64,000 nt of DNA from Hyphomicrobium sp. 12-62-95 (GTDB taxonomy: Bacteria; Pseudomonadota; Alphaproteobacteria; Rhizobiales; Hyphomicrobiaceae): positions 62,001-126,000 of the forward strand of contig NCCZ01000004.1 in the NCBI GenBank assembly GCA_002279935.1, given 5' to 3'. The first letter of the stretch is position 1. The number at the start of each line of letters is the position of its first letter. The notes below the pieces were generated by a model. The model saw only the letters and a list, made by a program, of their open reading frames with translations, made no database searches and had not been told where the DNA came from. Below, in pieces: positions 36,523-52,540 of the stretch. A program made the translations under genes and the position numbers.

Positions 36523-37257
36523 TTACGACGCCTTATCCGTCTCGGCGGGTGGCTGCGGATAAAACCGCCGCCACAGGGCGTTCGCGCCCAGCGTCTCTAC
36601 AAATGCCCGGTGCGCGGCCTCCATCTCGACGGACAATCGCGATGGCAGCGGCGCGGGCCGCTGCGCCGCCTTGCGTTGTGCCGCCCCCGCCCGCCGCGCC
36701 GCGCTCTCTTTCGCCGCCGACTGCGCCAGCCCTAGCGTCGCCTGCCGCTCGCCCAGCAACTCGACATAAACGTCCGCCAGCAAAACCGAATCCATCAGCG
36801 CGCCATGCTTCGTGCGCTTGGAATTATCGACGCCGTACCGCTTGCACAGCGCATCGAGGTTGTTCGGCCCCGCCGGATGCTTGCGCCGCGCTAGCGCCAA
36901 CGTATCGACAACGCGGCTCATCGCGATCGCGGGCTTTTTCAGTCGCGCCAATTCTGCATTCAAAAACCCGATGTCGAACGACGCGTTATGAATGACCAGA
37001 ACGTCCCCGCCGATGAATTCTAAGAACGCGTCGGCAACCTCGTGAAACCGCGCCTTATCCTTCAAAAACTCCGTCGAAATTCCATGCACCGCCTGCGCCT
37101 CCGCCGGCACATCGCGATCAGGATTGATAAAGCAGTGATACTCGCGCCCAGTAGGAATCCGGTTGAACAGCTCGATGCAGCCGATTTCGATCAGCCGGTC
37201 GCCCTTCGTCGGATCGAGTCCCGTCGTTTCCGTATCGAGCACGATTTCCCGCAGCAT
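36523..37257 (-). CDS. dnaQ: DNA polymerase III epsilon subunit
   Basis: 244 residues. A DEDDh 3'-5' exonuclease that proofreads for the replicative polymerase. Exo I is LDTETTGLDP, exo II lies in VIHNASFDIGFLNAEL, and exo III is HGALMDSVLLADVYVEL with the catalytic His-Asp pair. The C-terminal tail binds the alpha subunit in the family. The start MLREIVLDTETTG was chosen with a G-rich sequence 9 bases upstream; two ATGs 21-24 bases further up are possible. Confidence 0.92.
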   Translation of the reverse strand: MLREIVLDTETTGLDPTKGDRLIEIGCIELFNRIPTGREYHCFINPDRDVPAEAQAVHGISTEFLKDKARFHEVADAFLEFIGGDVLVIHNASFDIGFLNAELARLKKPAIAMSRVVDTLALARRKHPAGPNNLDALCKRYGVDNSKRTKHGALMDSVLLADVYVELLGERQATLGLAQSAAKESAARRAGAAQRKAAQRPAPLPSRLSVEMEAAHRAFVETLGANALWRRFYPQPPAETDKAS

Positions 37258-37295
37258 GTCGATAGGCCCCCCGGCCATCAAAAATAGGTCTCATC

Positions 37296-37916
37296 TTAAG
37301 CAGACCAATAGCGTGCATACGCCTGCGCGCGCCGTCCACCCAACATGCCGAGAATAGCATCCAGCTGATGCAGCGAGACCCCCGGCGGCCCGTTCGTATC
37401 CACAACGAAATGCGCCCGCCGCCGCTTTTCTTCATCTGGCATCTGCCGCGCGAGCAGTTGATCGAGCTTTTCCGCCGTCATACCGGGCCGCATCAACGCC
37501 CGCTCCCTCTGAGCCTCGGCACTGGCGCTCACCACGATCACCGCATCGAGCGCCGCATCGAGGCCCGTCTCATAGAGCAAAGGCACATCCAGAACCGCCA
37601 CAGCCGCCCCCGCCTCGGCTGCATCGCGCAAAAACGCCACTTCCCGCTGCCGCACCAGCGGATGCACGATCGCCTCGAGCCGCTTGAACCCGGCCGGATC
37701 GCGCTGGAGTGCCGCCGATAACAGCGCGCGGTCAACACCCGCGTTGTCCGTCGTCCCCGGAAACGCCGCCTCGATCAACGGCACCGCCTCGGCCCGATAA
37801 AGCTCATGCACACACCCATCCGCATCAAACACCGGCACGCCGCGCGACCGCAAATGCGCCGCAGCCGTCGTCTTCCCCATCGCGATCGATCCGGTAAGCC
37901 CCACGACCAGCATCAC
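37296..37916 (-). CDS. coaE: Dephospho-CoA kinase
   Basis: 206 residues. It performs the last step of CoA synthesis. P-loop LTGSIAMGKTTAAAHL is at the N-terminus, followed by VPVFDADGCVHELY and LEAIVHPLV, all family motifs. The start overlaps the aroE stop as ATGATG; either Met is possible. It belongs to the maf-aroE-coaE-dnaQ row. Confidence 0.92.
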   Translation of the reverse strand: MMLVVGLTGSIAMGKTTAAAHLRSRGVPVFDADGCVHELYRAEAVPLIEAAFPGTTDNAGVDRALLSAALQRDPAGFKRLEAIVHPLVRQREVAFLRDAAEAGAAVAVLDVPLLYETGLDAALDAVIVVSASAEAQRERALMRPGMTAEKLDQLLARQMPDEEKRRRAHFVVDTNGPPGVSLHQLDAILGMLGGRRAQAYARYWSA

Positions 37917-38746
37917 GCCGGCCTCTCGATATCGGCGCGCACCAAATCATAAAGCGCATCCGTCACCTGCGGCCGCACGCCAAACCACCTCTCAAAACCC
38001 GGCACCGCCTGATACAGCAGCATGCCAAGCCCATCGACCGTGCGCAGCCCACGCCGACGCGCTGACGCCAGAAACGCCGTTTCCAACGGCACATAAACGA
38101 TATCGCTCACAACCGTATCGGCATGCACGCCGGCAAAATCGATCCCCGGATCACCGGCGCCCTTCATGCCGAGCGTCGTCGTATTGACGATCACGCCCGT
38201 CTCCCGCGCGGCGTCGTTACGCGCATCCCAATCCCACACCTCCACGCGCGACCCAAAATGCCGGGCCAGCTCCTCGCTCCGCGCCCGCGACCGGTTACAC
38301 ACCCGCACTCGCGCAACACCGGCCTGCAAAAATCCATGCACGATCGCCCGCGCCGCCCCGCCCGCACCTAAAATCAAAACCGGTGCATCGCGCGTTGCCC
38401 ATTGCGGCGCCTTCACTCCCAAATACGTCATGAAGCCATAAGCATCCGTATTCGACGCGATGAGCCGCCCATCCTGCAGCCACAGCGTATTCGCCGCCCC
38501 GATCGCCACCGCCGCTGCATCGCGCTCATCCGCCAACGCCAGTGCCGCTTCCTTATGCGGTACCGTCACATTGCACCCGGCAAACCCGCGCTCACCCAAC
38601 GATGCCAGAAACGCCGGCAACTCTTCCGGCCGCACCGGCTCGCGCGTATAGCTGCCGTCGATGCCCAGCGTCCGCAACCAATAGCCATGAATAATCGGCG
38701 AGCGCGAATGTTCGATCGGCCAGCCAATAACGCACGCGCGCGTCAT
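37913..38746 (-). CDS. aroE: Shikimate dehydrogenase
   Basis: 277 residues; NADPH-dependent reduction of 3-dehydroshikimate in aromatic amino acid synthesis. Visible: IEHSRSPIIHGYWL (substrate), GCNVTVPHKEAAL with the catalytic Lys, NTDAYGFMTYL with the catalytic Asp, and the glycine motif LILGAGGAARAIVHGF. Overlaps maf and coaE by 4 bases each, so these genes are translationally coupled. Confidence 0.94.
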   Translation of the reverse strand: MTRACVIGWPIEHSRSPIIHGYWLRTLGIDGSYTREPVRPEELPAFLASLGERGFAGCNVTVPHKEAALALADERDAAAVAIGAANTLWLQDGRLIASNTDAYGFMTYLGVKAPQWATRDAPVLILGAGGAARAIVHGFLQAGVARVRVCNRSRARSEELARHFGSRVEVWDWDARNDAARETGVIVNTTTLGMKGAGDPGIDFAGVHADTVVSDIVYVPLETAFLASARRRGLRTVDGLGMLLYQAVPGFERWFGVRPQVTDALYDLVRADIERPA

Positions 38747-39342
38747 GCCGCCACCTCATCCATCCGCCGCAACTGGCCCAAGAGCGGCAGCAACGGCATC
38801 CCCATAATCGTGAAGTGATCGCCCGCAACGCGCTCGAACAACTGCACACCAGCACCTTCGATCTGATACGCACCGACACAGCCAAAAATGCCCGAGCCTG
38901 CAGCATCCAGATAACGCTCGATATCCGCGTCCGAGAGGTCGCGCATCGTCAGCGCAGCACTCTCCACCGTCCGCCACCTCAGATCATCGCCCACCGCGAC
39001 AGCCACCGCCGCATGCAACCAATGCGTCCGCCCGCTCAGCGTCCGCAACGTCTCCCGCGCACCCTCACGCGATCCCGGCTTCGACAGAATGTCATCACCC
39101 GTGCTCAGGATTTGATCCGATCCAATCACTATCGCACCCGGGTGCGCGGCCGCCACCGACAGCGCCTTCGTCTCCGCCAGCACCACCGCGATCTGCGGAT
39201 GCGGCGCGGACGCAATCATCACATCGCGTACGCTGTCTTCATCGATATCCGCCGGCACCACGTCGAACGCCAGCCCGGCATTCAACAGCATCTGCCGCCG
39301 CGCTGCCGATCCAGATGCCAAAATGAGCAGCCGCCCGCTCAT
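38743..39342 (-). CDS. Maf-like nucleoside triphosphate pyrophosphatase
   Basis: 199 residues. Family motifs: LILASGSAARRQMLLNAGL at the N-terminus, VLAETKALSVA, IVIGSDQILS, and the SGRTHWLHAAVAV segment. Maf proteins hydrolyse dTTP, UTP or modified nucleotides. Overlaps ppsR and aroE by 4 bases each. Confidence 0.92.
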   Translation of the reverse strand: MSGRLLILASGSAARRQMLLNAGLAFDVVPADIDEDSVRDVMIASAPHPQIAVVLAETKALSVAAAHPGAIVIGSDQILSTGDDILSKPGSREGARETLRTLSGRTHWLHAAVAVAVGDDLRWRTVESAALTMRDLSDADIERYLDAAGSGIFGCVGAYQIEGAGVQLFERVAGDHFTIMGMPLLPLLGQLRRMDEVAA

Positions 39343-40190
39343 GGCAAACTCTCGGCCGCGCGCGAATCAGACCGCCGGTCGTTCATCATTTGAATCACCG
39401 TCGCCGCCGTCTCTTCGACGGACTTGCGGGTCACATCGATCACCGGCCAACCATGGTCCGCGCAAATCCGCCGCGAATACGCGATTTCTTCCGTGATCTG
39501 CGTGCGATCGGCATAGGCGTTGATATCGCGGTCCGACATCAACAGCGCCCGGTTGCGCCGAACTTCCGTGATGCGATCGACACTCGCCACCAAACACACG
39601 ACGAATGCCGAATGCGGCTCGGTCAGTGCCGGCGGCAAGGGAATCTCCGGCACCAGCGGCAAGTTCGTCGTCTTATATCCGCGCTGTGCCAGATAGATGC
39701 TCGTCGGCGTTTTCGACGTGCGCGAAATTCCCAGTAGAATGATATCGGCCTTGTTGAGGTCTTCAGGCAGCCGCCCGTCGTCGTGCTGCATCGTAAAATT
39801 CAGCGCATCGATTCGCTTGAAGTAGCTGGCATCCAGCACATGCTGTCCGGCCACCGTCGGCGTCTGCGGCGCACCCAAATACGATTCGAACACCTGCATG
39901 ATCGGTTGCAACACCGCGTGCGCCGGCACGTTCAAATCACGGCACCGGTCTTCCAGCGTCGCAACAAGCTCGCGGTTGACGATCGTATAGAGCACGATCC
40001 CCGGCGCCTGCTCGATCTCCTGCAGCACGCGCTTCAACTGCCGCGGCGTTCGCACCAACGGATGCATATGCTCGATCGGCTTCAACGTCGCGTATTGAGC
40101 CGCAGCCGCCTTCGCAATCGCTGTCAGCGTATCGCCCGTGGAATCGGACACGAGATGCATATGATAGTAACTGGGCGGGCTGTTCGGCAT
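39339..40190 (-). CDS. ppsR: Pyruvate, phosphate dikinase / PEP synthase regulatory protein (DUF299)
   Basis: 283 residues, a bifunctional ADP-dependent kinase and pyrophosphorylase family. It begins HMHLVSDSTGDTLTAIAKAA and has the P-loop-like motif LGISRTSKTPTSIYLAQRGYKTTNLPLVP in the middle. This is the homologue of RP001, which borders the chromosomal origin in Rickettsia and Caulobacter. The start is the ATG giving MPNSPPSYYHMHLV; open frame further upstream enters the origin region. First gene of ppsR-maf-aroE-coaE-dnaQ. Confidence 0.9.
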   Translation of the reverse strand: MPNSPPSYYHMHLVSDSTGDTLTAIAKAAAAQYATLKPIEHMHPLVRTPRQLKRVLQEIEQAPGIVLYTIVNRELVATLEDRCRDLNVPAHAVLQPIMQVFESYLGAPQTPTVAGQHVLDASYFKRIDALNFTMQHDDGRLPEDLNKADIILLGISRTSKTPTSIYLAQRGYKTTNLPLVPEIPLPPALTEPHSAFVVCLVASVDRITEVRRNRALLMSDRDINAYADRTQITEEIAYSRRICADHGWPVIDVTRKSVEETAATVIQMMNDRRSDSRAAESLP

Positions 40191-40605
40191 CTGTGGACAA
40201 AAGACCGGGTTATCAACGGCGTGGGGCGACCGGTCGGCCCTCTCCCCAGCCGTGTGTGGACTTGCCCTGCCAGATACCCACATTCGGCCCCGCCGGGATA
40301 GTCCTGACCCATTTTCCTCCCTGCCCGTGGAGAAGCATTTTCCTCCGCGCCGGTCAGCCACCTTTCCCCAGGCTGTCCCCGAAGGTTGCCGGCGCATCGC
40401 ATACCGCAACACACTGACTTCCAAAGCCGCATCCGACCCTGGTAGACTGTCATCGTCTTCTGCCACTACATGGTGTCAGTCACGACGTGCACATCGAAGA
40501 CCTGTTGGAGAACCTGGGGATGACTATTCAATTCCCGCAATCCCTCGGTCTAAGAGTCAAAGAAGAAACCTAGAAAGACTCTCTCTAAGAATTTAAGGGA
40601 CCGGA
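40191..40605. other. Probable chromosomal replication origin (oriC)
   Basis: A 415-base gap between ppsR (minus) and hemE (plus), the place of the Caulobacter and Rickettsia origin. DnaA-box-like sites: TGTGGACAA at 40192-40200 (reverse complement TTGTCCACA, one mismatch from TTATCCACA), TTATCAACG at 40210-40218 and CGTGGAGAA at 40326-40334 (two mismatches each). TCCCCA motifs, like Caulobacter W-boxes, lie at 40243-40248, 40365-40370 and reversed at 40515-40520. The part next to hemE (about 40515-40600) is AT-richer and carries an inverted AGAGTC/GACTCT pair (40552-40557, 40578-40583). Genes on both sides mostly point outward. Confidence 0.7.
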
Positions 40606-41676
40606 ATGTCGAGTGCGGGGGCCAAGGGCCAAAACGATCGCAAACTGCTCAAGGTGCTTTCCGGTGAGGTGCTTCCTACCCCACCGATCTGGCTCATGCG
40701 CCAAGCTGGCCGCTACCTCGCCGAATACCGCGCCACGCGGACCGAGGCCGGCGGTTTCCTAAAGCTGTGCTACACACCGGCTCTGGCTGCCGAAGTGACC
40801 CTGCAGCCGATCCGCCGCTATGGCTTCGATGCTGCCATCCTGTTTTCCGACATCCTCGTCGTACCCGACGCGCTCGGCCAATCGGTGGCCTTCCTCGAAG
40901 GCGAAGGTCCCAAGCTCGAGCCGATCACATCGACCGTCGAATTGACCCGCCTCGATCGCGGCAAGACAGGCGAAAAATTTGGCCTCATCTGCGAAACCGT
41001 TTCACGTCTGCGCCAGGATCTGCCGAAAGAAACCACACTCATCGGCTTCTGCGGCGCCCCCTGGACGGTCGCCACCTATGTCGTCGGCGGTGAAGGCTCC
41101 TCCGACCAAGCCGCCGCCCGCCGCTTCGCCTATCGTGATCCGAAGGGTTTCCAGCAGTTGATCGACATTCTCGTCGACACCTCGGTCGATTATCTCGACC
41201 AGCAAATCAAAGCCGGCGCCGATACCGTGATGGTCTTTGACAGCTGGGCCGGCACGCTACCTGATCGCGAATTCGCAGCCTGGGTCACGGCCCCAACCGC
41301 CCGCCTCGTCCGCGATCTGAAAAAGCGCCGCCCGAACGTTCCCGTCATCGGTTTCCCGCGCGGCGCCGGCTCGAATGCGCTTGGATTCGTCAAGGAAACC
41401 GGCGTTCGCGGCGTCGGCTGCGATACGGCAATGCCGCTGAAGGATATGCGCACCCTTGCCAAGGATGCGGGAATCGCTGTCCAAGGAAACATCGATCCTC
41501 TGCTTCTCGTCGCCGGCGGGGATGCCCTCGATCGCCGCATTGATGAGACATTGGAAGCCATGCACGGCCTGCCTCATATCTTCAATCTTGGCCACGGCAT
41601 CGTGCCCGATACGCCGCCTGAAAACGTCGCCCGCCTTGTCGATCGCGTCCGCGCCTTCAACAAGGTCTCTGCATGA
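40606..41676 (+). CDS. hemE: Uroporphyrinogen decarboxylase
   Basis: 356 residues. It decarboxylates uroporphyrinogen III to coproporphyrinogen III in heme synthesis. Visible: PPIWLMRQAGRYLAEYRATR (signature 1), AAILFSDILVVPDALGQSV, FCGAPWTVATYVVGG, VMVFDSWAGTLPDREF and LGHGIVPDTPPENVARLVD. It overlaps hemJ by 4 bases (ATGA). The start GGGACCGGAATG directly abuts the origin region. Confidence 0.96.
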   Translation: MSSAGAKGQNDRKLLKVLSGEVLPTPPIWLMRQAGRYLAEYRATRTEAGGFLKLCYTPALAAEVTLQPIRRYGFDAAILFSDILVVPDALGQSVAFLEGEGPKLEPITSTVELTRLDRGKTGEKFGLICETVSRLRQDLPKETTLIGFCGAPWTVATYVVGGEGSSDQAAARRFAYRDPKGFQQLIDILVDTSVDYLDQQIKAGADTVMVFDSWAGTLPDREFAAWVTAPTARLVRDLKKRRPNVPVIGFPRGAGSNALGFVKETGVRGVGCDTAMPLKDMRTLAKDAGIAVQGNIDPLLLVAGGDALDRRIDETLEAMHGLPHIFNLGHGIVPDTPPENVARLVDRVRAFNKVSA

Positions 41677-42200
41677 CCACGGCGGTCGAGGAGAAGTCCG
41701 CCGCCGGTCGCGCGGGCACCGCGCTTGCCGTCACGGTCGCGGTCACCGCGCTCACGATCTGGCTCTTCGGCGACGACGCTTATCTATGGATCAAGTCGGT
41801 CCACGTCATCGCGATCATCTCGTGGATGGCGGGCCTCCTCTACCTGCCGCGCCTGTTCATCTACCACTGCGACGCGCCGAAGGGCTCCGTGCAGTCCGAG
41901 ACCTTCAAGGTGATGGAGCGCCGCCTCCTCAACATCATCATGACCCCGGCGATGGTCATTTCCTGGGTCCTCGGCCTCTGGCTCGCCTACCAAGCCGGCT
42001 TCTTTTCCAGCGGCTGGCTGCTCGTAAAGCTGGCTCTCGTTATCGCCCTATCTGGCGTGCACGGATATTTCTCCGCCTCCGTCCGCCGCTTCGGTCAGGA
42101 CGCTAACGAGAAGCCCCCGCGCCATTGGAGGATCGTCAACGAAGTCCCCACGCTATTGATGGTAGCTATCGTTATCCTGGTGATCGTGAAGCCTTTCTGA
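41673..42200 (+). CDS. hemJ: Protoporphyrinogen IX oxidase HemJ
   Basis: 175 residues with about five membrane helices. The segment WIKSVHVIAIISWMAGLLYLPRLFIYH carries conserved His residues of the oxygen-independent HemJ oxidase, followed by VMERRLLNIIMTPAMVISW and KPPRHWRIVNEVPTLLMVAIV. It makes protoporphyrin IX in the membrane. It is coupled to hemE by a 4-base overlap, which matches its pathway role. Confidence 0.93.
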   Translation: MTTAVEEKSAAGRAGTALAVTVAVTALTIWLFGDDAYLWIKSVHVIAIISWMAGLLYLPRLFIYHCDAPKGSVQSETFKVMERRLLNIIMTPAMVISWVLGLWLAYQAGFFSSGWLLVKLALVIALSGVHGYFSASVRRFGQDANEKPPRHWRIVNEVPTLLMVAIVILVIVKPF

Positions 42201-42438
42201 CGGCGATCTCGTGGCTCAAGAGGAAACGCTTTTAATTCGGCGACGATTCTGCTAACGATCTCTTGTCTCAACAAAGACTTCGCGGTCTCTCCGGCCGCGA
42301 AAAGGTCCAGGTCGGCCCCAGTCAGCGGCTCGCACCGGCCAATCAAGCTCAGCACAAGACTGCGCTTTTTCTCCCCACCCAGACCCCGGCGCGCGGCCCA
42401 AAACCCCCTCCATCGCCGCAGCCCATGCGGAGCCATTT

Positions 42439-43704
42439 ATGAGTGAAGTAAAGCTCGAAGACCTCAAGCGCAAAACCCCGACGGAGCTGTTGAGCTTCGC
42501 CGAAGAGGCCGGCGTGGAAAACGCGAGCACCCTGCGTAAACAGGAATTGATGTTTGCGACGCTGAAGCAGCTCGCCGCCAAAGACATCGAAATCGCCGGC
42601 ATCGGCGTCGTCGAAGTCCTCCAGGACGGTTTCGGCTTCCTGCGCTCCCCCGATGCGAACTATCTCCCGGGCCCCGACGACATCTACATCTCGCCCAGCC
42701 AGATCCGCCGCTTTGCGCTCCGCACAGGCGACACCGTTGAAGGCCAGATCCGCAGCCCCAAGGAAGGCGAACGCTACTTCGCCCTCGTCAAGGTCAACAA
42801 GATCAACTTCGAAGACCCCGAAGCTACCAAGCACAAGATCCACTTCGACAACCTGACGCCGCTCTACCCGACGAAGTGGCTCAAGATGGAAATCGAAGAT
42901 CCCACCATCAAGGACTTCTCCGCCCGCGTCATCGACATCGTCGCCCCGCTTGGCAAAGGCCAGCGCGGCCTCATCGTCGCCCCGCCGCGCACCGGTAAAA
43001 CGGTCCTCCTCCAGAACATCGCGCACGCGATCTCCACCAATCATCCCGAGTGCTATCTGATGGTGCTGCTCATCGACGAGCGCCCGGAAGAAGTCACCGA
43101 CATGCAGCGCACTGTGAAGGGCGAGGTCATTGCTTCCACCTTCGACGAGCCGCCTTCGCGCCACGTGCAGGTCTCCGAAATGGTGATCGAAAAGGCCAAA
43201 CGCCTCGTCGAACACAAGCGCGACGTGGTCATCCTCTTGGACTCAATCACGCGCCTCGGCCGCGCTTACAACACCGTCGTTCCGTCTTCTGGCAAGGTCC
43301 TGACAGGCGGCGTTGATTCCAATGCACTCCAGCGGCCCAAGCGCTTCTTCGGCGCCGCGCGTAATATCGAAGAAGGCGGCTCGCTCACCATCATCGCTAC
43401 CGCGCTCGTCGAAACGGGCTCGCGCATGGACGAAGTCATCTTCGAAGAATTCAAAGGCACCGGTAACTCGGAAGTCATCCTCGACCGCAAGGTCTCCGAC
43501 AAGCGCGTCTTCCCGGCGATCGACGTTGCCCGCTCCGGCACCCGCAAGGAAGACCTGCTCATTCCGAAGGATCAGCTCAAGAAGGTCTATGTGCTCCGCC
43601 GCATCCTCAACCCGATGGGCACGATGGACTCGATCGAGTTCCTCATCGACAAACTCAAGTCGACCAAGACCAACAGCGAGTTCTTCCAGCAGATGAACAC
43701 CTGA
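42439..43704 (+). CDS. rho: Transcription termination factor Rho
   Basis: 421 residues, a hexameric RNA helicase. The N-terminal domain [34 protein letters not shown] is followed by the RNA-binding cold-shock-like segment [30 protein letters not shown]. The P-loop is at about 182-189 (PPRTGKTV), Walker B in [13 protein letters not shown], and [30 protein letters not shown] is the Q-loop and R-loop region. A strong terminator follows. The hemE-hemJ-rho order is standard. Confidence 0.97.
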
Positions 43705-43733
43705 CGCGCTCACTCCGCGCCGCTGCGAAAATC

Positions 43734-43767
43734 AAAAGGGCCGCTGAAACCAGCGGCCCTTTTTTTT
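43734..43767 (+). terminator. Intrinsic terminator after rho
   Basis: AAAAGGGCCGCTG pairs with CAGCGGCCCTTTT around a short loop, followed by a run of T. It lies between rho and the convergent desaturase gene. Confidence 0.92.
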
Positions 43768-43788
43768 GATCTCCAAGCGACATCCAAC

Positions 43789-45156
43789 TTATCGCGGCGC
43801 GCCCTGACGCGAGGCCTCGCTGTGGCTCGCGATGGCGGCCTTGTCGTTCACGTCCGCCAGTTCGAGCGAATCGTCCTGCACGCTGATCTCCTCGCCCGTC
43901 ATCGCGTAGCGCGGCCCCAGCACCTCCACGATCGACGGCATGCCCGGCGCGCCCTGGCCCAACACCCCATGCACGACCATGCCCTTCTCACGATACTCCG
44001 GATCGTTGAGCAGCACCTCGTGCAGATCCTTCAGCTTGTAGTGCGGCACCGAGCAATAAATGTGATGCGGCAGGTGGTAGTCCATGCCCCACGGGAACAC
44101 GAGCCATCGCACCACCGGGTTCACGAAGAAGATCCGGGAATTCGTCAGCCGCCCGCGATCCGCATTGCCATGTTGCACCCACTCGCGCGCGATCATGAAC
44201 AGCGGGAATGTCGTGAACAGCGGCAGGATCCAAAGGAGTCCATACCATCCCCAAGCCGGCGCGCCCGTCAGATAACACGTCAGCGACAGCGCTCCGTAAA
44301 GCAGCGCCAGGAAGCCCATCCGCCCGATCGCCGTCGCCCGATGCGACACGATCGGATTGATCCGGCTCTGCGCGAAGTCCTCGTCCGGGATCAGCGCATA
44401 GTATCCCAGCACTGCCGCGGAAATGGCCATGTGCGCAATCAGAAGCGCCAACCAATCTCCATGCAGGATGAGCGCAATCGCCACCGCCGGCATGAACACG
44501 GCAAACAGCGCGCCGACGCGCACCGTCCACGGCGACCCCATCCGCGCCTTATCGGCATACGGGTTATCGTCCGATCCAATCGCGCTGTAGCGCGCCCGCG
44601 CCATGACGTACCGCACGAGCCGCACCGGATTGAGCTGCCGGATGACACCCATCAGCAGCTCATACTGCGTCAGCGGAAAATCGAGCCAATGCCCGGACAT
44701 CTCGGCTTGCGCGAAATTCGGATCGCGCACGGGATCGTTGACGAATTGATGATGCGCCAGATGATGCAACCGGAACGCATACGTCGACGTGTAGATCGGG
44801 AACGCCGCCAACCAGTCGGAGATGATCTCGTTCTTCTTCCGGTCCGCAAAGAGGATGTAATGCGTGCCCTCGTGGATCGCCCCGCCAAGCTGATGCTGAA
44901 ACCCGCCGATGATGATCACCGCCAGCACGGTCGCCGGCACGGTCAGCCAGCCGCCCAATCCCGATGTCTCGGCGTACGAGAACGACCACAGCGTCGCGGC
45001 CACCGTCGCGATAAAGATCGCGTAGTTCACCGCGAGGTAGCGATGGTTCGTGTGGTTGTCCCGCTCCTTGAGCCGCTGCAATTCCCGCGCAACGGACTTA
45101 TCGAGGGCCCATGATTTGGGTTCAGGCTGAGACGCCGCCAGCGGTGCACTCTGCAT
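43789..45156 (-). CDS. Membrane fatty acid desaturase
   Basis: 455 residues. The three histidine boxes of di-iron membrane desaturases are visible: GAIHEGTHYI, RLHHLAHHQF and DYHLPHHIY. Four or more hydrophobic stretches lie between them. The sequence falls in the general fatty-acid desaturase superfamily, which also includes hydroxylases and ketolases, so the substrate is uncertain. The start was set at MQSAPLAASQPEPK with AGGAGA 7 bases upstream. The C-terminal 60 residues are hydrophilic. It sits between rho and mnmE, pointing against them. Confidence 0.85.
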   Translation of the reverse strand: MQSAPLAASQPEPKSWALDKSVARELQRLKERDNHTNHRYLAVNYAIFIATVAATLWSFSYAETSGLGGWLTVPATVLAVIIIGGFQHQLGGAIHEGTHYILFADRKKNEIISDWLAAFPIYTSTYAFRLHHLAHHQFVNDPVRDPNFAQAEMSGHWLDFPLTQYELLMGVIRQLNPVRLVRYVMARARYSAIGSDDNPYADKARMGSPWTVRVGALFAVFMPAVAIALILHGDWLALLIAHMAISAAVLGYYALIPDEDFAQSRINPIVSHRATAIGRMGFLALLYGALSLTCYLTGAPAWGWYGLLWILPLFTTFPLFMIAREWVQHGNADRGRLTNSRIFFVNPVVRWLVFPWGMDYHLPHHIYCSVPHYKLKDLHEVLLNDPEYREKGMVVHGVLGQGAPGMPSIVEVLGPRYAMTGEEISVQDDSLELADVNDKAAIASHSEASRQGAPR

Positions 45157-45193
45157 GATCGGTCTCCTGCGCGACTGTCGTTCAGTAAGCCTG

Positions 45194-45202
45194 TTATCCA
45201 CA
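45194..45202 (+). promoter_or_regulatory. Perfect consensus DnaA box TTATCCACA
   Basis: An exact match to the DnaA 9-mer in the intergenic region between the desaturase (minus) and mnmE (plus), with AT-rich sequence just downstream (45220-45260, including TTGTCAACAA). It lies 5 kb from the putative origin. A role in transcriptional control by DnaA or DnaA titration is possible. Confidence 0.6.
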
Positions 45203-45423
45203 GGCCGTCGCTTCACTCTTGTTGAATAAGTTCAATGCCGTACTCAATATTTGTCAACAAGCCGTAAGAGCATGGTTAAGAGAGCGTCGAGGACCAGTCT
45301 GGCCGTCGCGCACCCCGCTCAAATTACGACGCTGAACCGCGCCCGATTGTTCCCCGCAATACATCGCGAGCGTCGCCCCGGTCCGCACCCCGTGATATGC
45401 ACGGGCCGAACCCGCAGGTGCCG

Positions 45424-46776
45424 ATGCCGCCCCCAACCGAGACCTCGACGATCTACGCCCTCTCGACCGCGCCGGGCCGCGCGGGCGTCGCCGTCATTCG
45501 CGTCTCCGGCCCCCGCGCCAGCCAGGTCCTCGCCCTGATGACCCGGCCCCGCCCCAAGCCCCGCATCGCCTCCGCCCGCACCTTCATCCATCCCATCGAC
45601 AGCCGCCCCCTCGATCGCGGCCTCGTCCTCTGGTTCCCCGGCCCAAAGAGCTTCACCGGCCAAGACGTCGTCGAACTGATGCTCCACGGCGGCCGCGCGG
45701 TCGTCGCAAGCCTGCTTGAGGCCCTTAGCGCCATCCACGGCTTCCGCCTCGCCGAACCCGGAGAATTCGCCCGCCGCGCTTTCGACAACGGCAAGATCGA
45801 CCTCGCCGAAGCCGAAGGCCTCGCCGACCTCATCGACGCCGAAACCGAAGCCCAACGCCGCCAGGCCCTGCGCCAGGCGACTGGCGCCCTCTCCGCCCTC
45901 ATCGAAAGCTGGCGCGCCACCCTCCTCGACGCCCTCGCGCTGACCGAAGCCGCCATCGACTTCTCCGACGAAGCCGACGTCAGCGACCAAAGCATCGCCC
46001 AAGCCCGCGCCAGCGTCGAAAGCCTCGAAGCCGCCATCCGCCACCACCTGGACGATTCCAACCGCGGCGAGATCCTCCGCGACGGCTTCCGCGTCACGCT
46101 CGCCGGCCCGCCCAACGTCGGAAAATCCAGCCTCCTGAACGCGCTCGCCCGCCGCCCCGCCGCCATCGTCTCCGAGGAAGCCGGCACCACCCGCGACGTG
46201 ATCGACGTCCGCCTCGACCTCGGCGGCTACCCGGTCCTGCTCTCCGACACCGCCGGCATCCGCCAGACCGAACTCCGCGTCGAACAGGAGGGCATCCGCC
46301 GCACGCTCGAGGCCGCCCGCGCAGCCGACTTGATCCTCTGGCTGGTCGACCCCGGCGCCCCCGAAATCCAGCTCCCGGCCGACCTCGTGCCCGTCAGCGA
46401 CCGCGTGCTCCTCGTCCGCAACAAGGCCGACCTGATCAAAACCGGCGCCCCGCCCGCACTCCCCGACGACAGCGTGCTCGTCTCAGCCAAGACCGGCCAG
46501 GGCCTCGACGACCTCACCGCGCGCCTCGCCGCCATCGCTCAAGATCGCCTCGACGACCGCGGTCTGCCCGCCGCCCTGACGAACGCCCGCCAGCGCGCCC
46601 TCGTCGCCGACACCCACCATCATCTGTGCGTCTTCCTGGAGGGCAACCCGCACGAACCCGAGCTGCGCGCCGAAGACCTCCGCCGCGCCGCCCACGCGCT
46701 CGGCCGCCTCACTGGCCGCATCGACGTCGAAGACATCCTCGGCCAAATCTTCAGCCGCTTCTGCATCGGCAAATGA
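45424..46776 (+). CDS. mnmE: tRNA uridine-5-carboxymethylaminomethyl(34) synthesis GTPase MnmE
   Basis: 450 residues. MnmE and MnmG modify wobble uridine 34 in some tRNAs. The N-terminal tetrahydrofolate-binding domain contains APGRAGVAVIRVSGPRA and ELMLHGGRAVVASLLEAL. The G domain has GPPNVGKSSLLNAL (G1, about 228-241), LSDTAGIRQTE (G3) and VRNKADLI (G4). The C-terminal CIGK motif with the catalytic Cys is intact. The start MPPPTETSTIYAL fits the family; an ATG 27 bases upstream also works. Confidence 0.94.
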   Translation: MPPPTETSTIYALSTAPGRAGVAVIRVSGPRASQVLALMTRPRPKPRIASARTFIHPIDSRPLDRGLVLWFPGPKSFTGQDVVELMLHGGRAVVASLLEALSAIHGFRLAEPGEFARRAFDNGKIDLAEAEGLADLIDAETEAQRRQALRQATGALSALIESWRATLLDALALTEAAIDFSDEADVSDQSIAQARASVESLEAAIRHHLDDSNRGEILRDGFRVTLAGPPNVGKSSLLNALARRPAAIVSEEAGTTRDVIDVRLDLGGYPVLLSDTAGIRQTELRVEQEGIRRTLEAARAADLILWLVDPGAPEIQLPADLVPVSDRVLLVRNKADLIKTGAPPALPDDSVLVSAKTGQGLDDLTARLAAIAQDRLDDRGLPAALTNARQRALVADTHHHLCVFLEGNPHEPELRAEDLRRAAHALGRLTGRIDVEDILGQIFSRFCIGK

Positions 46777-46801
46777 CTCGGAACGCGCCACACGCTCACG
46801 A

Positions 46802-46830
46802 ATGATTCACGTGAAACATGCCCGTGAATC
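46802..46830. repeat. 29-bp direct repeat, left copy, with a near-consensus parS site
   Basis: Contains TGATTCACGTGAAACA at 46803-46818, one base from the parS consensus TGTTTCACGTGAAACA. The whole unit also forms an inverted repeat with arms GATTCACG and CGTGAATC. An identical copy lies at 47949-47977. It is 25 bases after the mnmE stop. It would be a ParB binding site. Confidence 0.85.
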
Positions 46831-47001
46831 ATGTCGGCCCGTCCCGCTTAGACCGTAGCTGCAGACAAGACTAACGACGCGCTGCCTCCGCCTTACAAAA
46901 TCCATCCGTTGCGATGCCACCGAAACGTCTAGCAACCGAGCGGCGCCGACATGCTTAGACTATCAAATGGAAATGCAGGACGGCTCGTATTTAGATCAGC
47001 G

Positions 47002-47280
47002 TCAGTCAGCGCTATCTGGCGATTTGAAATATGACCGAAGCCCAAACGTGCTCAACGAGAATACGAGTATGCCGACGGTATCATTCACACCAGACCGCCA
47101 ATGGAGGAATGGGTCAGCGTAGAAGTACGCGTCGTGAATCATGTTGGGCCCGAAGCCGACTACAGAGGGTAGAATGACGGCCCATAGCCACGATCTCGCC
47201 AATCCACCGCATATAGTGCCCAACAATAAATTGAGGAGATTGAATACGGCAAACACAACACCTCCAATGTGGTTACGCAC
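47002..47280 (-). CDS. Hypothetical small membrane protein in the parS-flanked insert
   Basis: 92 residues, not recognised. Two or three hydrophobic segments (GVVFAVFNLLNLLLGTICGGLA, WLWAVILPSVVGFGP, NDTVGILVFSLSTFGL) suggest an integral membrane protein. The start is GTG without a clear ribosome binding site, so the gene call is uncertain. Lower GC than the neighbours. It is divergent from the PD-(D/E)XK-like gene. Confidence 0.4.
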   Translation of the reverse strand: MRNHIGGVVFAVFNLLNLLLGTICGGLARSWLWAVILPSVVGFGPNMIHDAYFYADPFLHWRSGVNDTVGILVFSLSTFGLRSYFKSPDSAD

Positions 47281-47324
47281 GCAGCATCAAGTAGCTATTG
47301 TGCCGTATCAAGTAGCGGATTGAG

Positions 47325-47894
47325 ATGAGCAACATAACCAAGGCAATTTGTGAATCCCTGACCGTTGTCGAACTACTTCGGCGAGGATGGCATGTCGTCA
47401 ATCTCAACGCTGTTAATAATACCCCAAACGCTGACCTCATCGCCATTAAAGCATCAAGTCGAATTACTCTACAGGTCAAGGGCACCGATGGTCGTGCAGG
47501 TCAGCCGTTTCCGCATACGGTGTCGTTCGCAAGAAGCTGCGAAAAGTTTCTGACCCAACAGACGCCGTTTTTCAATTCCAAGCAGTCACCGGTCCAGGCA
47601 GACTTCTTTGTGGGTGTAACGCAGGCTCCCGGCACCCAATCATTCCTCATCATGCCAATTAGCGCCGCAGAATCGCTGGCGCGAGAGATCGCAAGTTGGT
47701 GGTATCAGGTACCAACTGTCGACGGCAGACTGCGCTCCCCTAACTTTGCGGCCCTTGTCGCCATTAGAGAGGAAGGCATCATCGGTGGGCAGTGGCGATG
47801 TGCACGTGAAGCGCACTTCAGAAAGGCGGCCCCGTATATCGACAATTGGGGCATCCTCGATGACGTACAGACTTCGGCCATCGGTGGCACCTAG
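47325..47894 (+). CDS. PD-(D/E)XK nuclease-like hypothetical protein in the parS-flanked insert
   Basis: 189 residues. The N-terminal part fits a restriction-endonuclease-like fold: Glu16 in VVELLRRGWHVV, Asp37 in PNADLIAIK, and QVK at 50-52 in ITLQVKG, the spacing and hydrophobic pattern expected for a PD-(D/E)XK active site with Gln in place of Glu. The second half has no recognised motif. Lower GC and different codon choice than mnmE and mnmG, so probably acquired. The function is inference; a nucleic-acid-processing or defence role is one possibility. Confidence 0.55.
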   Translation: MSNITKAICESLTVVELLRRGWHVVNLNAVNNTPNADLIAIKASSRITLQVKGTDGRAGQPFPHTVSFARSCEKFLTQQTPFFNSKQSPVQADFFVGVTQAPGTQSFLIMPISAAESLAREIASWWYQVPTVDGRLRSPNFAALVAIREEGIIGGQWRCAREAHFRKAAPYIDNWGILDDVQTSAIGGT

Positions 47895-47948
47895 CAGCCC
47901 CACGACGCCCCTCCAAAAAACAACTCCTGGGGTTCCTTATGTCCACCC

Positions 47949-47977
47949 ATGATTCACGTGAAACATGCCCGTGAATC
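47949..47977. repeat. 29-bp direct repeat, right copy, with a near-consensus parS site
   Basis: Identical to the copy at 46802-46830, with TGATTCACGTGAAACA at 47950-47965. The two copies bracket the 1.1-kb AT-richer segment between mnmE and mnmG. Confidence 0.85.
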
Positions 47978-48022
47978 CACCGACCCTTCGACCCACCTCA
48001 CCCCCCCCGATTCCCCCACCCC

Positions 48023-48038
48023 AGTTTCACGTGAAACC
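48023..48038. promoter_or_regulatory. parS site (perfect 14-bp core)
   Basis: GTTTCACGTGAAAC at 48024-48037 matches the inner 14 bases of the parS consensus exactly; only the outermost bases differ. It lies between the repeat and the mnmG start, in a C-rich stretch. Confidence 0.9.
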
Positions 48039-48115
48039 AATTCTTCACGGATTTGGAATCGGTTAGCCCCTGATCGCTACTTTTCCTCTCCGCGTTTTGC
48101 GCTAGAAGAACGCCC

Positions 48116-50053
48116 ATGAGCCCTGTCAACACCCTGTCGCCGGCCCAGCACACCCCAGCCCTGAACACCTATGACGTGATCGTCGTGGGCGGCGGCCACG
48201 CGGGCGTGGAAGCCGCCGCCGCCGCGGCCCGCATGGGCGCTGCGACCGTGCTCGTCACCCACCGCTTTGCAACCATCGGCGAAATGTCGTGCAACCCGGC
48301 CATTGGCGGCCTCGGCAAGGGCCATTTGGTCCGCGAAGTTGATGCCCTCGACGGCCTCATGGGCCGCGTCGCCGACGCCGCCGGTATCCAGTTCCGCCTG
48401 CTCAACCGCTCCAAGGGCCCCGCCGTCCAGGGCCCCCGCGCCCAGGCCGACCGCAAGCTCTACCGCCAGGCCATGCAGTCAGCGATCCGCGCCACGCCCG
48501 GCCTCACGGTCGTCGAAGGCGCCGTCCACGACCTCATCGTCGAAAACGGGCACGTTATCGGCCTGAAACTCGAAGACGGCCGCGAACTCCGCGCCGCCGC
48601 CGTGGTCCTCACCACCGGCACGTTCCTCAACGGCCTGATCCACCTGGGCGAAACCCGCACCCCCGCCGGCCGCCATGGCGAGGCCCCGGCCAAAGGCCTG
48701 TCCGAGCGGCTCTATACCTCCGGTTTGGCGATGGGCCGCCTCAAAACCGGCACCCCAGCCCGCCTCGATGGCCGCACGATCGCCTGGGATCGCCTCGCTA
48801 GCCAGCCGGGCGACGACCCCCCGGTCCCGTTTTCTTTCCTGACGACGGCCATCACGACGCCCCAGATCGCCTGCGGCGTCACCGAAACCACGCCCGAAAC
48901 CCACCGCATCATCCGCGAAAATCTCAGCCGCTCCCCCATGTACAGCGGCCAGATCGAGAGCGTCGGCCCCCGCTATTGCCCCTCGATCGAAGACAAGGTG
49001 GTCCGTTTTGCCGCCCGGGAAACCCACCAGATCTTCCTCGAACCCGAAGGCCTTGACGACCCGACGGTCTACCCAAACGGCATCTCGACCTCGCTCCCCG
49101 CCGAGGTCCAGGAGGCCTTTATCCGAACGATTCCGGGCCTCGAACAGGCAGCGATCCTGCGCCCGGGCTACGCCATCGAATACGACACGATCGATCCCCG
49201 CGAGCTGGAATCCACCCTTGAAGTCAAGCGCTTGCCGGGCCTGTTCCTCGCCGGCCAGATCAACGGCACCACGGGCTATGAAGAAGCCGCCGCCCAAGGG
49301 ATTATCGCCGGCATCAATGCCGCGCTCGCAGCCGGCGGCGGCCACCGCACCTTCGTTCTCTCCCGCTCCGACGCCTATATCGGCGTCATGATCGATGACC
49401 TCGTTACCCGCGGCGTCACCGAGCCCTACCGCATGTTCACGTCGCGCGCCGAATTCCGATTAAAACTCCGCGCCGACAACGCCGATCAGCGCCTCACCCC
49501 GCTGGGCCGCGCCATTGGCTGCGTCGGCCCTGAGCGCGAAACCGCCTTTTCCGCCCGCATGGCCACCCTTGACGCCGGCCGCGCTGTGCTCGACCGACTG
49601 ACGCTCACCCCCAACGAAGCCGCCAGCGCCGGCCTTGCGATCAACCACGACGGACGCCGCCGCTCGGCGTTTGAGCTGATGGCCTTCCCCGACATCACAT
49701 TCGACCGCCTCGCCGCCATCTGGCCGGAACTCGCCGCCATTGGCCCGGCCACCGCCGCCCAGATCGAAACCGACGCCCGCTACGCCGCTTATGTCCGCCG
49801 CCAGGAAGAAGACGTTGCCGCCTTGAAGCGTGACGAAGCCATTGCGATTCCAGCCGGATTCGACTTTGCTGCCATTCAGAGCCTGTCCAACGAGGTACGC
49901 CAAAAGCTGACCAAGCATCAGCCCCGCACATTGGCCCAGGCCGCCCGCATTGATGGCATGACGCCCGCCGGCCTGACCCTGCTGCTCGCCGCCGTCAAAA
50001 AGGCCGGCAAATCCGCGAAAACCGCCACGCCTAATCGGCTTTCCCGTGCATGA
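48116..50053 (+). CDS. mnmG: tRNA uridine-5-carboxymethylaminomethyl(34) synthesis enzyme MnmG
   Basis: 645 residues. The FAD motif [21 protein letters not shown] is near the N-terminus, followed by [53 protein letters not shown] and the C-terminal helical domain that contacts MnmE follow. It works with MnmE on U34 of tRNA. Its stop overlaps the rsmG start by 4 bases. Confidence 0.96.
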
Positions 50054-50733
50054 CCAACTCAGCCACCCCCGTCACCGACGCCGCCAGCTTTCAACGCGCG
50101 TTCGGGGTTTCACGTGAAACGGGAGTAAAATTCGAGGCTTACGCCGCTCTGCTCAAACAATGGCAGAAGGCCGTTCAGCTCGTCGCCCCCAGCACGCTCG
50201 ACGCTGTCTGGTCCCGCCACTTCGCCGATTCGGCTCAATTGTGGGCCCTGACACCCCCCGGAACGCGTACTTGGGCCGATCTCGGCTCCGGCGCCGGCTT
50301 TCCCGGCCTGGTCATTGCCCTCATGGCCCGCGATCCCGGCTCGCCCAGCCCCGACCTGCGCGTCACCCTGGTCGAAAGCGATTCCCGCAAGGCCGCCTTC
50401 CTCCGCGAGGCCGCCCGGCAGGCCGGGTGCCCTGTGGACATCTTGGGGACACGAATCGAATCATCCTCGACTCGCGATAAGGTTGGGCCAGTAGACGTGG
50501 TTTCGGCCCGTGCCTTGGCGCCGTTGACCGACCTTTTCCGCCTCGCCCACCCTTTCTGGCAGCCCCAAACGCTGGGCCTGTTCCTCAAAGGGCGCGATGC
50601 GGAAAAAGAGGTTGACGCCGCTCGCGCCGTCTGGGACTCCGAGTTGGAGCTAAAACTCAGCTTGACCGACCCCGACGCGCGCATTGTGTGCGTCCGAAAT
50701 CTCAATCCGCGGGCTTTAACGCCCGCCGCCTAA
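50050..50733 (+). CDS. rsmG: 16S rRNA (guanine-527-N7)-methyltransferase
   Basis: 227 residues. It begins with a segment ending [33 protein letters not shown], then the SAM motif [18 protein letters not shown] and [17 protein letters not shown]. The codons for VSRET are themselves a parS site. It is coupled to mnmG and lies just ahead of parA. Confidence 0.94.
50107..50120. promoter_or_regulatory. parS site inside rsmG
   Basis: GTTTCACGTGAAAC, a perfect 14-bp core palindrome, within the 5' part of rsmG. The rsmG reading frame encodes VSRET here, so the amino acids and the centromere site are kept together. Confidence 0.9.
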
Positions 50734-50748: not shown

Positions 50749-51582
<834 letters not shown>

Positions 51583-51660
51583 GTAATCCCCGCTGGGGCT
51601 GTGTATGTTGGAGTGCGTGAAAACAATGGATTGCAGACCTTTGCAAAGGTGAAGACAACG

Positions 51661-52540
51661 ATGAACGTGCCCCTGCAGAAGAGCCGCCTCGGCCGTGGTC
51701 TCGCGTCACTGATCGGTGATACGCCCACCATTGCAACGCCGCGCGGCCCCGCCGAGGGCGAGCAGCGCGTCGTCGGCACCGATCTTCTCCGCGGCGGCCG
51801 CTTCAACCCGCGCAAGGATTTCCGCGACGAAGAATTGGCCGAATTAGCCGAGTCGATCCGCCAGAAGGGGCTCGTCCAGCCGATCATAGTCCGTTCCGAT
51901 CCCGACAACGAGCAGCGCTTCGAAATCGTCGCCGGCGAACGCCGCTGGCGCGCGGCACAGCGCGCTGGTCTGCACACGGTCCCCGTCATCGTCCGCATCC
52001 TTGACGACAAGGAAGTCCTCGAACTCGCCATCATCGAGAACGTCCAGCGCGCCGACCTCAACGCCATCGAACTATCGCGATCTCATCGAACGCTTCGACT
52101 ATAGCCAGGAGCAGGTCTCCGAAATCATCGGCAAGAGCCGTAGCCACGTCACCAACACGCTGCGCCTCCTGAAGCTGCCCACGTCGGTGCAGTCCCTCGT
52201 GCAGAACGGTTCGCTCACCGCCGGCCACGCCCGTGCCCTCGTCGGCCGCGACGATGCCGAAGCGCTGGCTCAAAAAATTATCGAAGACAGCCTCAACGTC
52301 CGCGAAGTCGAATCCCTGGTCCAATCGGGCCCGATTGGCACCGCCGGTGCAACAGGCGCCCGCAAGGCCCGCGATAAAGACGCCGACACGCGCGCCTTCG
52401 AAAAGGAACTCACCGACGCCCTCGGCCTCAAGGTCGAGATCAAGCGCAGTTCGGGCGAAAGCGGTGTCATGACCATCAAGTTCGGCAACTTTGACCAGCT
52501 CGACTACATCCGGATGCGGCTGACCGGCATGACCGAGTAA
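51661..52540 (+). pseudogene. parB: Chromosome partitioning protein ParB, frameshifted
   Basis: Two reading frames together make a full ParB of about 292 residues. Frame 1 (51661-52071) covers residues 1-137 and includes RLGRGLASLIGD, GERRWRA (92-98) and ENVQRADLNAIE (126-137). Frame 2 resumes at 52073 with YRDLIERFDYSQEQVSEIIGKSRSHVTNTLRLLKLP, the helix-turn-helix part, and runs to 52540. The normal joining sequence (EEARGY-like) is missing about 11 bases. Without repair, frame 1 stops at 52104, giving a 147-residue protein without the DNA-binding and dimerisation domains. It is either a real mutation or a sequence error. Confidence 0.85.

Follow-up and report, generated by a model that had tools for sequence, protein, structure and literature searches.

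A putative replication origin of the hemE/COG1806 type within one-signed GC skew in Hyphomicrobium

In Caulobacter, the dnaA gene is close to the chromosomal origin of replication, and parS lies a few kb from that origin, a placement of parS that the locus described here shares. The origin itself is located by PMC1914354 between hemE and COG1806, and GANTC motifs in it are already on record (PMC3973325). The nearest experimental parallel to the present locus is Hyphomonas neptunium: in the account given by PMC6650430, the measured replication maximum is close to hemE, and neither the skew nor dnaA nor the boxes gave a clear indication. The skew of Methylocystis SC2 is likewise described as having no clear pattern (PMC3794950). 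At a larger scale, SkewDB records about 250 chromosomes with skews that are at least threefold unequal, and calls them hard to explain (PMC8941118).

Here we analyze a window (the whole stretch of DNA under study, 64 kb long) corresponding to positions 62001-126000 of contig C63 (422,631 bp) of a Hyphomicrobium assembly (G000; 4.39 Mb in 65 contigs). Its closest named relatives by HemE comparison are Hyphomicrobium MAGs (87-99% identical), and three further assemblies (G064, G065 and G066) belong to the same genus. A preliminary description of this DNA had put forward a chromosomal origin between ppsR and hemE. By examining synteny, DnaA boxes, the AT-rich side of the gap, parS sites, the direction of rRNA and rpsL genes, and a step in GC skew, all of which support that proposal, we hypothesize that the 415-bp gap at 40191..40605 is very probably an oriC of the alphaproteobacterial hemE/COG1806 type, DnaA-dependent and bidirectional. 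The gap is like Caulobacter crescentus Cori, as portrayed in the sources cited, in its flanking genes, its length near 400 bp, its TCCCCA W-boxes, its AT-rich part and its GANTC sites (PMC1914354, PMC4285127, PMC3973325). It is like Hyphomonas neptunium, as that chromosome is presented in PMC6650430, in being an origin close to hemE, with parAB and parS some 7 kb distant and an uninformative skew; the Hyphomonas neptunium position rests on read depth, whereas ours rests on sequence only, and the skew of Hyphomicrobium is strong and one-signed where that of Hyphomonas neptunium is merely unclear.

Gene neighbourhood of the ppsR-hemE gap

The gap separates two divergent genes: ppsR, the COG1806 (RP001) homologue of the Kinase-PPPase family (39339..40190, minus strand; PF03618, E 3.7e-89), and hemE, encoding uroporphyrinogen decarboxylase (40606..41676, plus strand; PF01208, E 1.2e-115). 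Both the likeness of these neighbours to a known alphaproteobacterial origin and their outward orientation, which the preliminary description had pointed out, are thus borne out. Farther left, maf, aroE, coaE and a dnaQ-like exonuclease gene occupy 36523..39342 on the minus strand; the right flank (41673..50733, plus strand) carries UPF0093, rho, mnmE, mnmG and rsmG, with a desaturase gene on the opposite strand (43789..45216, minus) inside it. An Rfam search of the window gave no match.

The preliminary description had also reported parS sites nearby, and four parS-type palindromes are indeed found 6-10 kb right of the gap, at 46803..46818, 47950..47965, 48023..48038 and 50106..50121, the last two with a perfect core. 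They represent 8 strand-matches between 46803 and 50121 (0.03 expected) and are all the parS sites of the assembly at one mismatch or fewer: they fall within 3.3 kb (C63:108804-112120), and at one mismatch none occurs elsewhere in the assembly. A parS cluster within about 10 kb is what a ParABS origin domain contains. In 13 relatives most parS sites are within about 13 kb of hemE, with sites elsewhere in G012 (three), G023, G049 and G065 (one each); in G064 the parS sites and ppsR are on different contigs. The cluster is followed by parA (50749..51582, plus strand; AAA_31, E 4.8e-54) and by parB (51601..52540, plus strand), which is split in two frames, one with ParB_N (51601-52104) and one with the HTH and the C-terminal domain (52001-52540). 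Among the 10 ParB_N matches in the assembly, the stretch 51601-52540 ranks first by a wide margin (second best E 1.4e-14). The frameshift corresponds to an 11-bp gap relative to G065, and the frame is open in G065 and G066; the split is either a real mutation or an assembly error.

The layout is widely conserved. A divergent ppsR-hemE pair with a gap of 344-445 bp (approximate lengths, because the gap ends were extrapolated from tblastn) is present at 49 of 54 loci, three of the 49 repeating a genome; these loci span Hyphomicrobiales, Azospirillum and other alphaproteobacterial loci. The exceptions are three loci without ppsR in the stretch covered and two (L024 and L025) where the genes are 6.8-8.0 kb apart. 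Within Hyphomicrobiaceae, both the gap length and the clustering of boxes persist.

Boxes and the AT-rich side of the gap

Counting as DnaA-box-like any 9-mer on either strand with at most two mismatches from TTATCCACA, we found five in the gap, one of them with a single mismatch, against 0.79 in 500 dinucleotide shuffles (p 0.002); TCCCCA W-boxes of the Caulobacter type, counted on both strands, number three against 0.48 (500 dinucleotide shuffles, p 0.012). The DnaA-like boxes and TCCCCA motifs noted from inspection of the sequence are therefore in excess of chance, and the accompanying remark that the DnaA boxes are weak also stands, as the gap has no perfect TTATCCACA. The box density of the gap is not reached in any of 65 other intergenic stretches of the contig. 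Two further 415-bp windows among 602 kb scanned also reach five 9-mers (C63:217311 and C1:145021), and there every site has two mismatches. The sole perfect copy of TTATCCACA in the 64-kb window (45194-45202) is 4.6 kb right of the gap on the mnmE side, at the 5' end of the desaturase frame and probably upstream of the true start of that gene.

From the ppsR side onward, and with identities given as means over five genus-level sequences in alignment, the motifs are: TTGTCCACA (40192..40200, minus strand, one mismatch, identity 0.98); TTATCAACG (40210..40218, plus strand, two mismatches, 0.93); a W-box at 40243..40248 (plus strand, 0.83); ATACCCACA (40274..40282, plus strand, two mismatches, 1.0); the weak TTCTCCACG (40326..40334, minus strand, 0.69), which is poorly conserved and probably a chance match; a second W-box at 40365..40370 (plus strand, 1.0); and TCATCCCCA (40515..40523, minus strand, 0.84), a two-mismatch box with a W-box inside it. 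The best-conserved sites are those at 40192, 40210 and 40274 and the W-box at 40365, and over the five sequences box columns have an identity of 0.895 versus 0.808 elsewhere (circular-shift p 0.011). The same excess is seen more widely: 35 non-repeat gaps contain 150 two-mismatch boxes (30.5 expected) and 33 one-mismatch boxes (2.3 expected). Unlike Caulobacter Cori, the window gap contains no G-box TGATCCACA, and none of the 35 gaps contains a CtrA site by the strict consensus TTAAN7TTAA, the only form searched.

As had been described, an AT-richer part adjoins hemE: the AT fraction, 0.34 on the ppsR side, climbs to 0.58 at 40541-40590, and the AT-rich part (40541..40605), judged from its composition, is a probable unwinding element. 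All 35 gaps have a higher AT content in the 100 bp nearest hemE than in the remainder. A DnaA-trio reading of this part was looked at by eye only and is not claimed. Two GANTC (CcrM-type) sites lie here, GAGTC at 40554..40558 and GACTC at 40577..40581, and a GANTC site is present in the hemE-proximal 120 bp of 33 of the 35 gaps (shuffle mean 16.4, maximum 23, in 200 shuffles); since GANTC is already recorded in the Caulobacter origin, this placement is an extension and not a new idea. A RAMA-domain protein, which we infer to be CcrM in G000, is encoded there and in the three relatives queried, and among 14 control genomes only Caulobacter matched. At 40414-40444 we also observed a conserved pair of elements, CTGACT/TTGACT-like and, after 19 bases, CTGGTA/CTAGTG-like, possibly a hemE promoter within the origin.

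Divergent genes need promoters, and a loose TTGA/CTGA plus CTNGT pattern is present in 23 of the 35 gaps (counted without a shuffle control), so that the gap could be merely a conserved double promoter for ppsR and hemE; we regard this as extremely improbable, as promoters alone predict neither clusters of DnaA boxes nor a gap of near-constant length across orders, and neither the proximity of parS nor the skew step described below.

If the gap is the oriC that we propose, DnaA would nucleate on the ppsR-side boxes (40192, 40210 and 40274), spread via the weak W-boxes (40243, 40365 and 40515), and open the AT-rich stretch beside hemE (about 40541-40605), where CcrM-type methylation of the GANTC sites could tie initiation to the cell cycle. 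From the gap, two forks would then depart outward, and the new origin would be moved by ParB, if it works in this strain, acting at the parS sites clustered 6-10 kb to the right.

GC skew and gene direction around hemE

The preliminary description had expected the switch point of the skew to fall at the gap, but it does not: between about 18 and 398 kb of C63 the skew remains below zero, and at hemE (102.4 kb) we see a step only and no change of sign. Measured as the skew of the 20 kb to the right minus that of the 20 kb to the left (12 kb for the left flank of G031), the raw step across the gap is positive in 14 of 14 genomes from 7 genera, which are not independent within genera, with a mean of +0.047. 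Control steps are -0.0035 inside the left flanks (5 of 14 positive) and +0.0116 inside the right flanks (9 of 14 positive). The skew keeps one sign with a small step at the gap because one strand carries a long-range bias. An artefact of gene orientation was rejected, since the bias survives averaging of third codon positions over plus- and minus-strand genes: the averaged values left and right are -0.30 and about -0.26 in G000, -0.185 and -0.096 in G066, -0.296 and -0.26 in G065, and +0.056 and +0.12 in G031. The base level of the skew is therefore opposite in sign between lineages, and the change at hemE is always origin-directed. An inversion adjoining hemE, as a cause of the wrong-signed right side, was rejected as well, because the sign is shared by both sides in relatives collinear with C63 (G066 over about 17-281 kb, through hemE, and G065 over about 20-160 kb) and the order rho-mnmE-mnmG-rsmG-parA is intact.

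Change-point scans did not single out the gap in the three genomes scanned: in C63 of G000 the scan is highest at 112-115 kb, some 10 kb beyond the gap on its right, and the gap ranks 32 of 361 positions; in G066 the optimum falls about 9 kb to the right, with the gap at rank 13 of 341; and in G065 the gap ranks 79 of 121. The block from hemE to parB consists almost wholly of plus-strand housekeeping genes, and the codon usage of these may make the change-point estimate less sharp. Near the end of the contig and outside the window (C63:398000-422631), the skew falls to near zero, and there is a short frame of ParB_N-like sequence at 419790; this segment may be an acquired element.

In G000, G065 and G066 the skew is strongly negative both left and right of hemE, which, together with a gap that has no perfect DnaA box, would also fit a working origin that has moved elsewhere in the genus, the hemE gap being an old origin kept by promoters and parS; the uniform negative skew would then reflect forks crossing hemE from the right. 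We consider such a move quite improbable: boxes are still enriched and conserved in the genus, parS is still beside hemE, the origin-directed step is present in those same three genomes, C63 genes tend to point outward to either side (by crude gene calls, 51 of 74 to the left of 100 kb and 142 of 252 to its right), and one-signed flanks are found also in other genera, where rRNA and rpsL genes point away from hemE.

The direction of these genes was determined in ten genomes by hand from coordinates, with the terminus taken as halfway. On the hemE contig, the 5S rRNA gene points away from hemE at 9 of 9 loci (leaving out G036, where it is on another contig, and G000, where 5S was not found), as does rpsL at 8 of 8, three on the right and five on the left (leaving out G000 and G053, where it is on other contigs); outward 5S rRNA and rpsL genes thus occur on both arms in the relatives. 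The left flank of G012 has a skew of +0.035, yet its 5S gene points left; gene orientation therefore follows hemE and not the sign of the skew. Unlike in Caulobacter, dnaA is 215-400 kb from hemE in nine relatives, on either side (a placement that matches inversions symmetric about the origin, as expected), and on another contig in G000; it points away from hemE in 8 of the 9, the exception being G053. The locus of dnaA in G000 has no DnaA-box cluster within 1.5 kb, and its contig, C1, has positive skew throughout the 180 kb read; an origin at the dnaA gene was rejected on these grounds, and the skew switch at a dnaA locus that the preliminary description had named as counting against the gap is not seen.

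These outward genes, which are those of relatives and not of the window's own genus, support two forks leaving hemE. They argue against an origin at hemE from which copying is mostly one-directional, an account of the one-signed skew that would draw on the net G excess of one strand (in six of six complete relatives by motif count and in two by sampling) and on the unidirectional large secondary replicons that PMC7858055 reports. As rRNA and rpsL genes are outward on both arms, even on the wrong-signed left flank of G012, and the skew steps at hemE in all 14 genomes, we judge one-directional copying very improbable.

Long-range strand asymmetry

The one-signed baseline is lineage-specific; it reaches its greatest strength in the window's genus and, in complete relatives, extends over the whole chromosome. 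On C1 (294 kb), a C-rich 8-mer falls on one strand at 51 of 51 places among the matches listed. Sampled net skew is +0.030 in G031 (27 stretches, oversampled near hemE) and +0.033 in G035 (22 stretches), with one sampled arm near +0.06 and the other near zero in both. A G-rich 10-mer is commoner on one strand in six of six complete chromosomes (69:23, 61:26, 62:31, 82:35, 65:46 and 74:45; G012, G031, G032, G035, G048 and G049), of which only G012, G032, G048 and G049 (270:145) test the bias independently, because the 10-mer was chosen from data of G031, G035 and G000; the count for G048 taken alone is weak. These chromosomes are like the asymmetric ones described by SkewDB in having one arm skewed and the other near zero (PMC8941118), and unlike them in that the asymmetry recurs within one family, where it can be compared at a fixed origin landmark. 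Our literature searches found no paper naming a strand asymmetry for Hyphomicrobium.

We raise as a speculative possibility, on balance unlikely, that in Hyphomicrobiaceae some process besides bidirectional copying from oriC writes a chromosome-wide asymmetry that leaves one strand G-rich on both arms; candidates are a long-term imbalance of forks, a second site of initiation, or some process by which one and the same strand is always exposed. If this were so, the origin would show merely as a step within a one-signed skew. With the gap between ppsR and hemE as the probable oriC, an origin is placed for a genus in which cumulative GC skew would mislead, and a practical remedy may be to compare relatives at one fixed landmark and to seek a step there instead of a sign change. 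The recurring one-strand baseline of the family would likewise allow the asymmetric skews recorded in SkewDB to be put to the test in one case.
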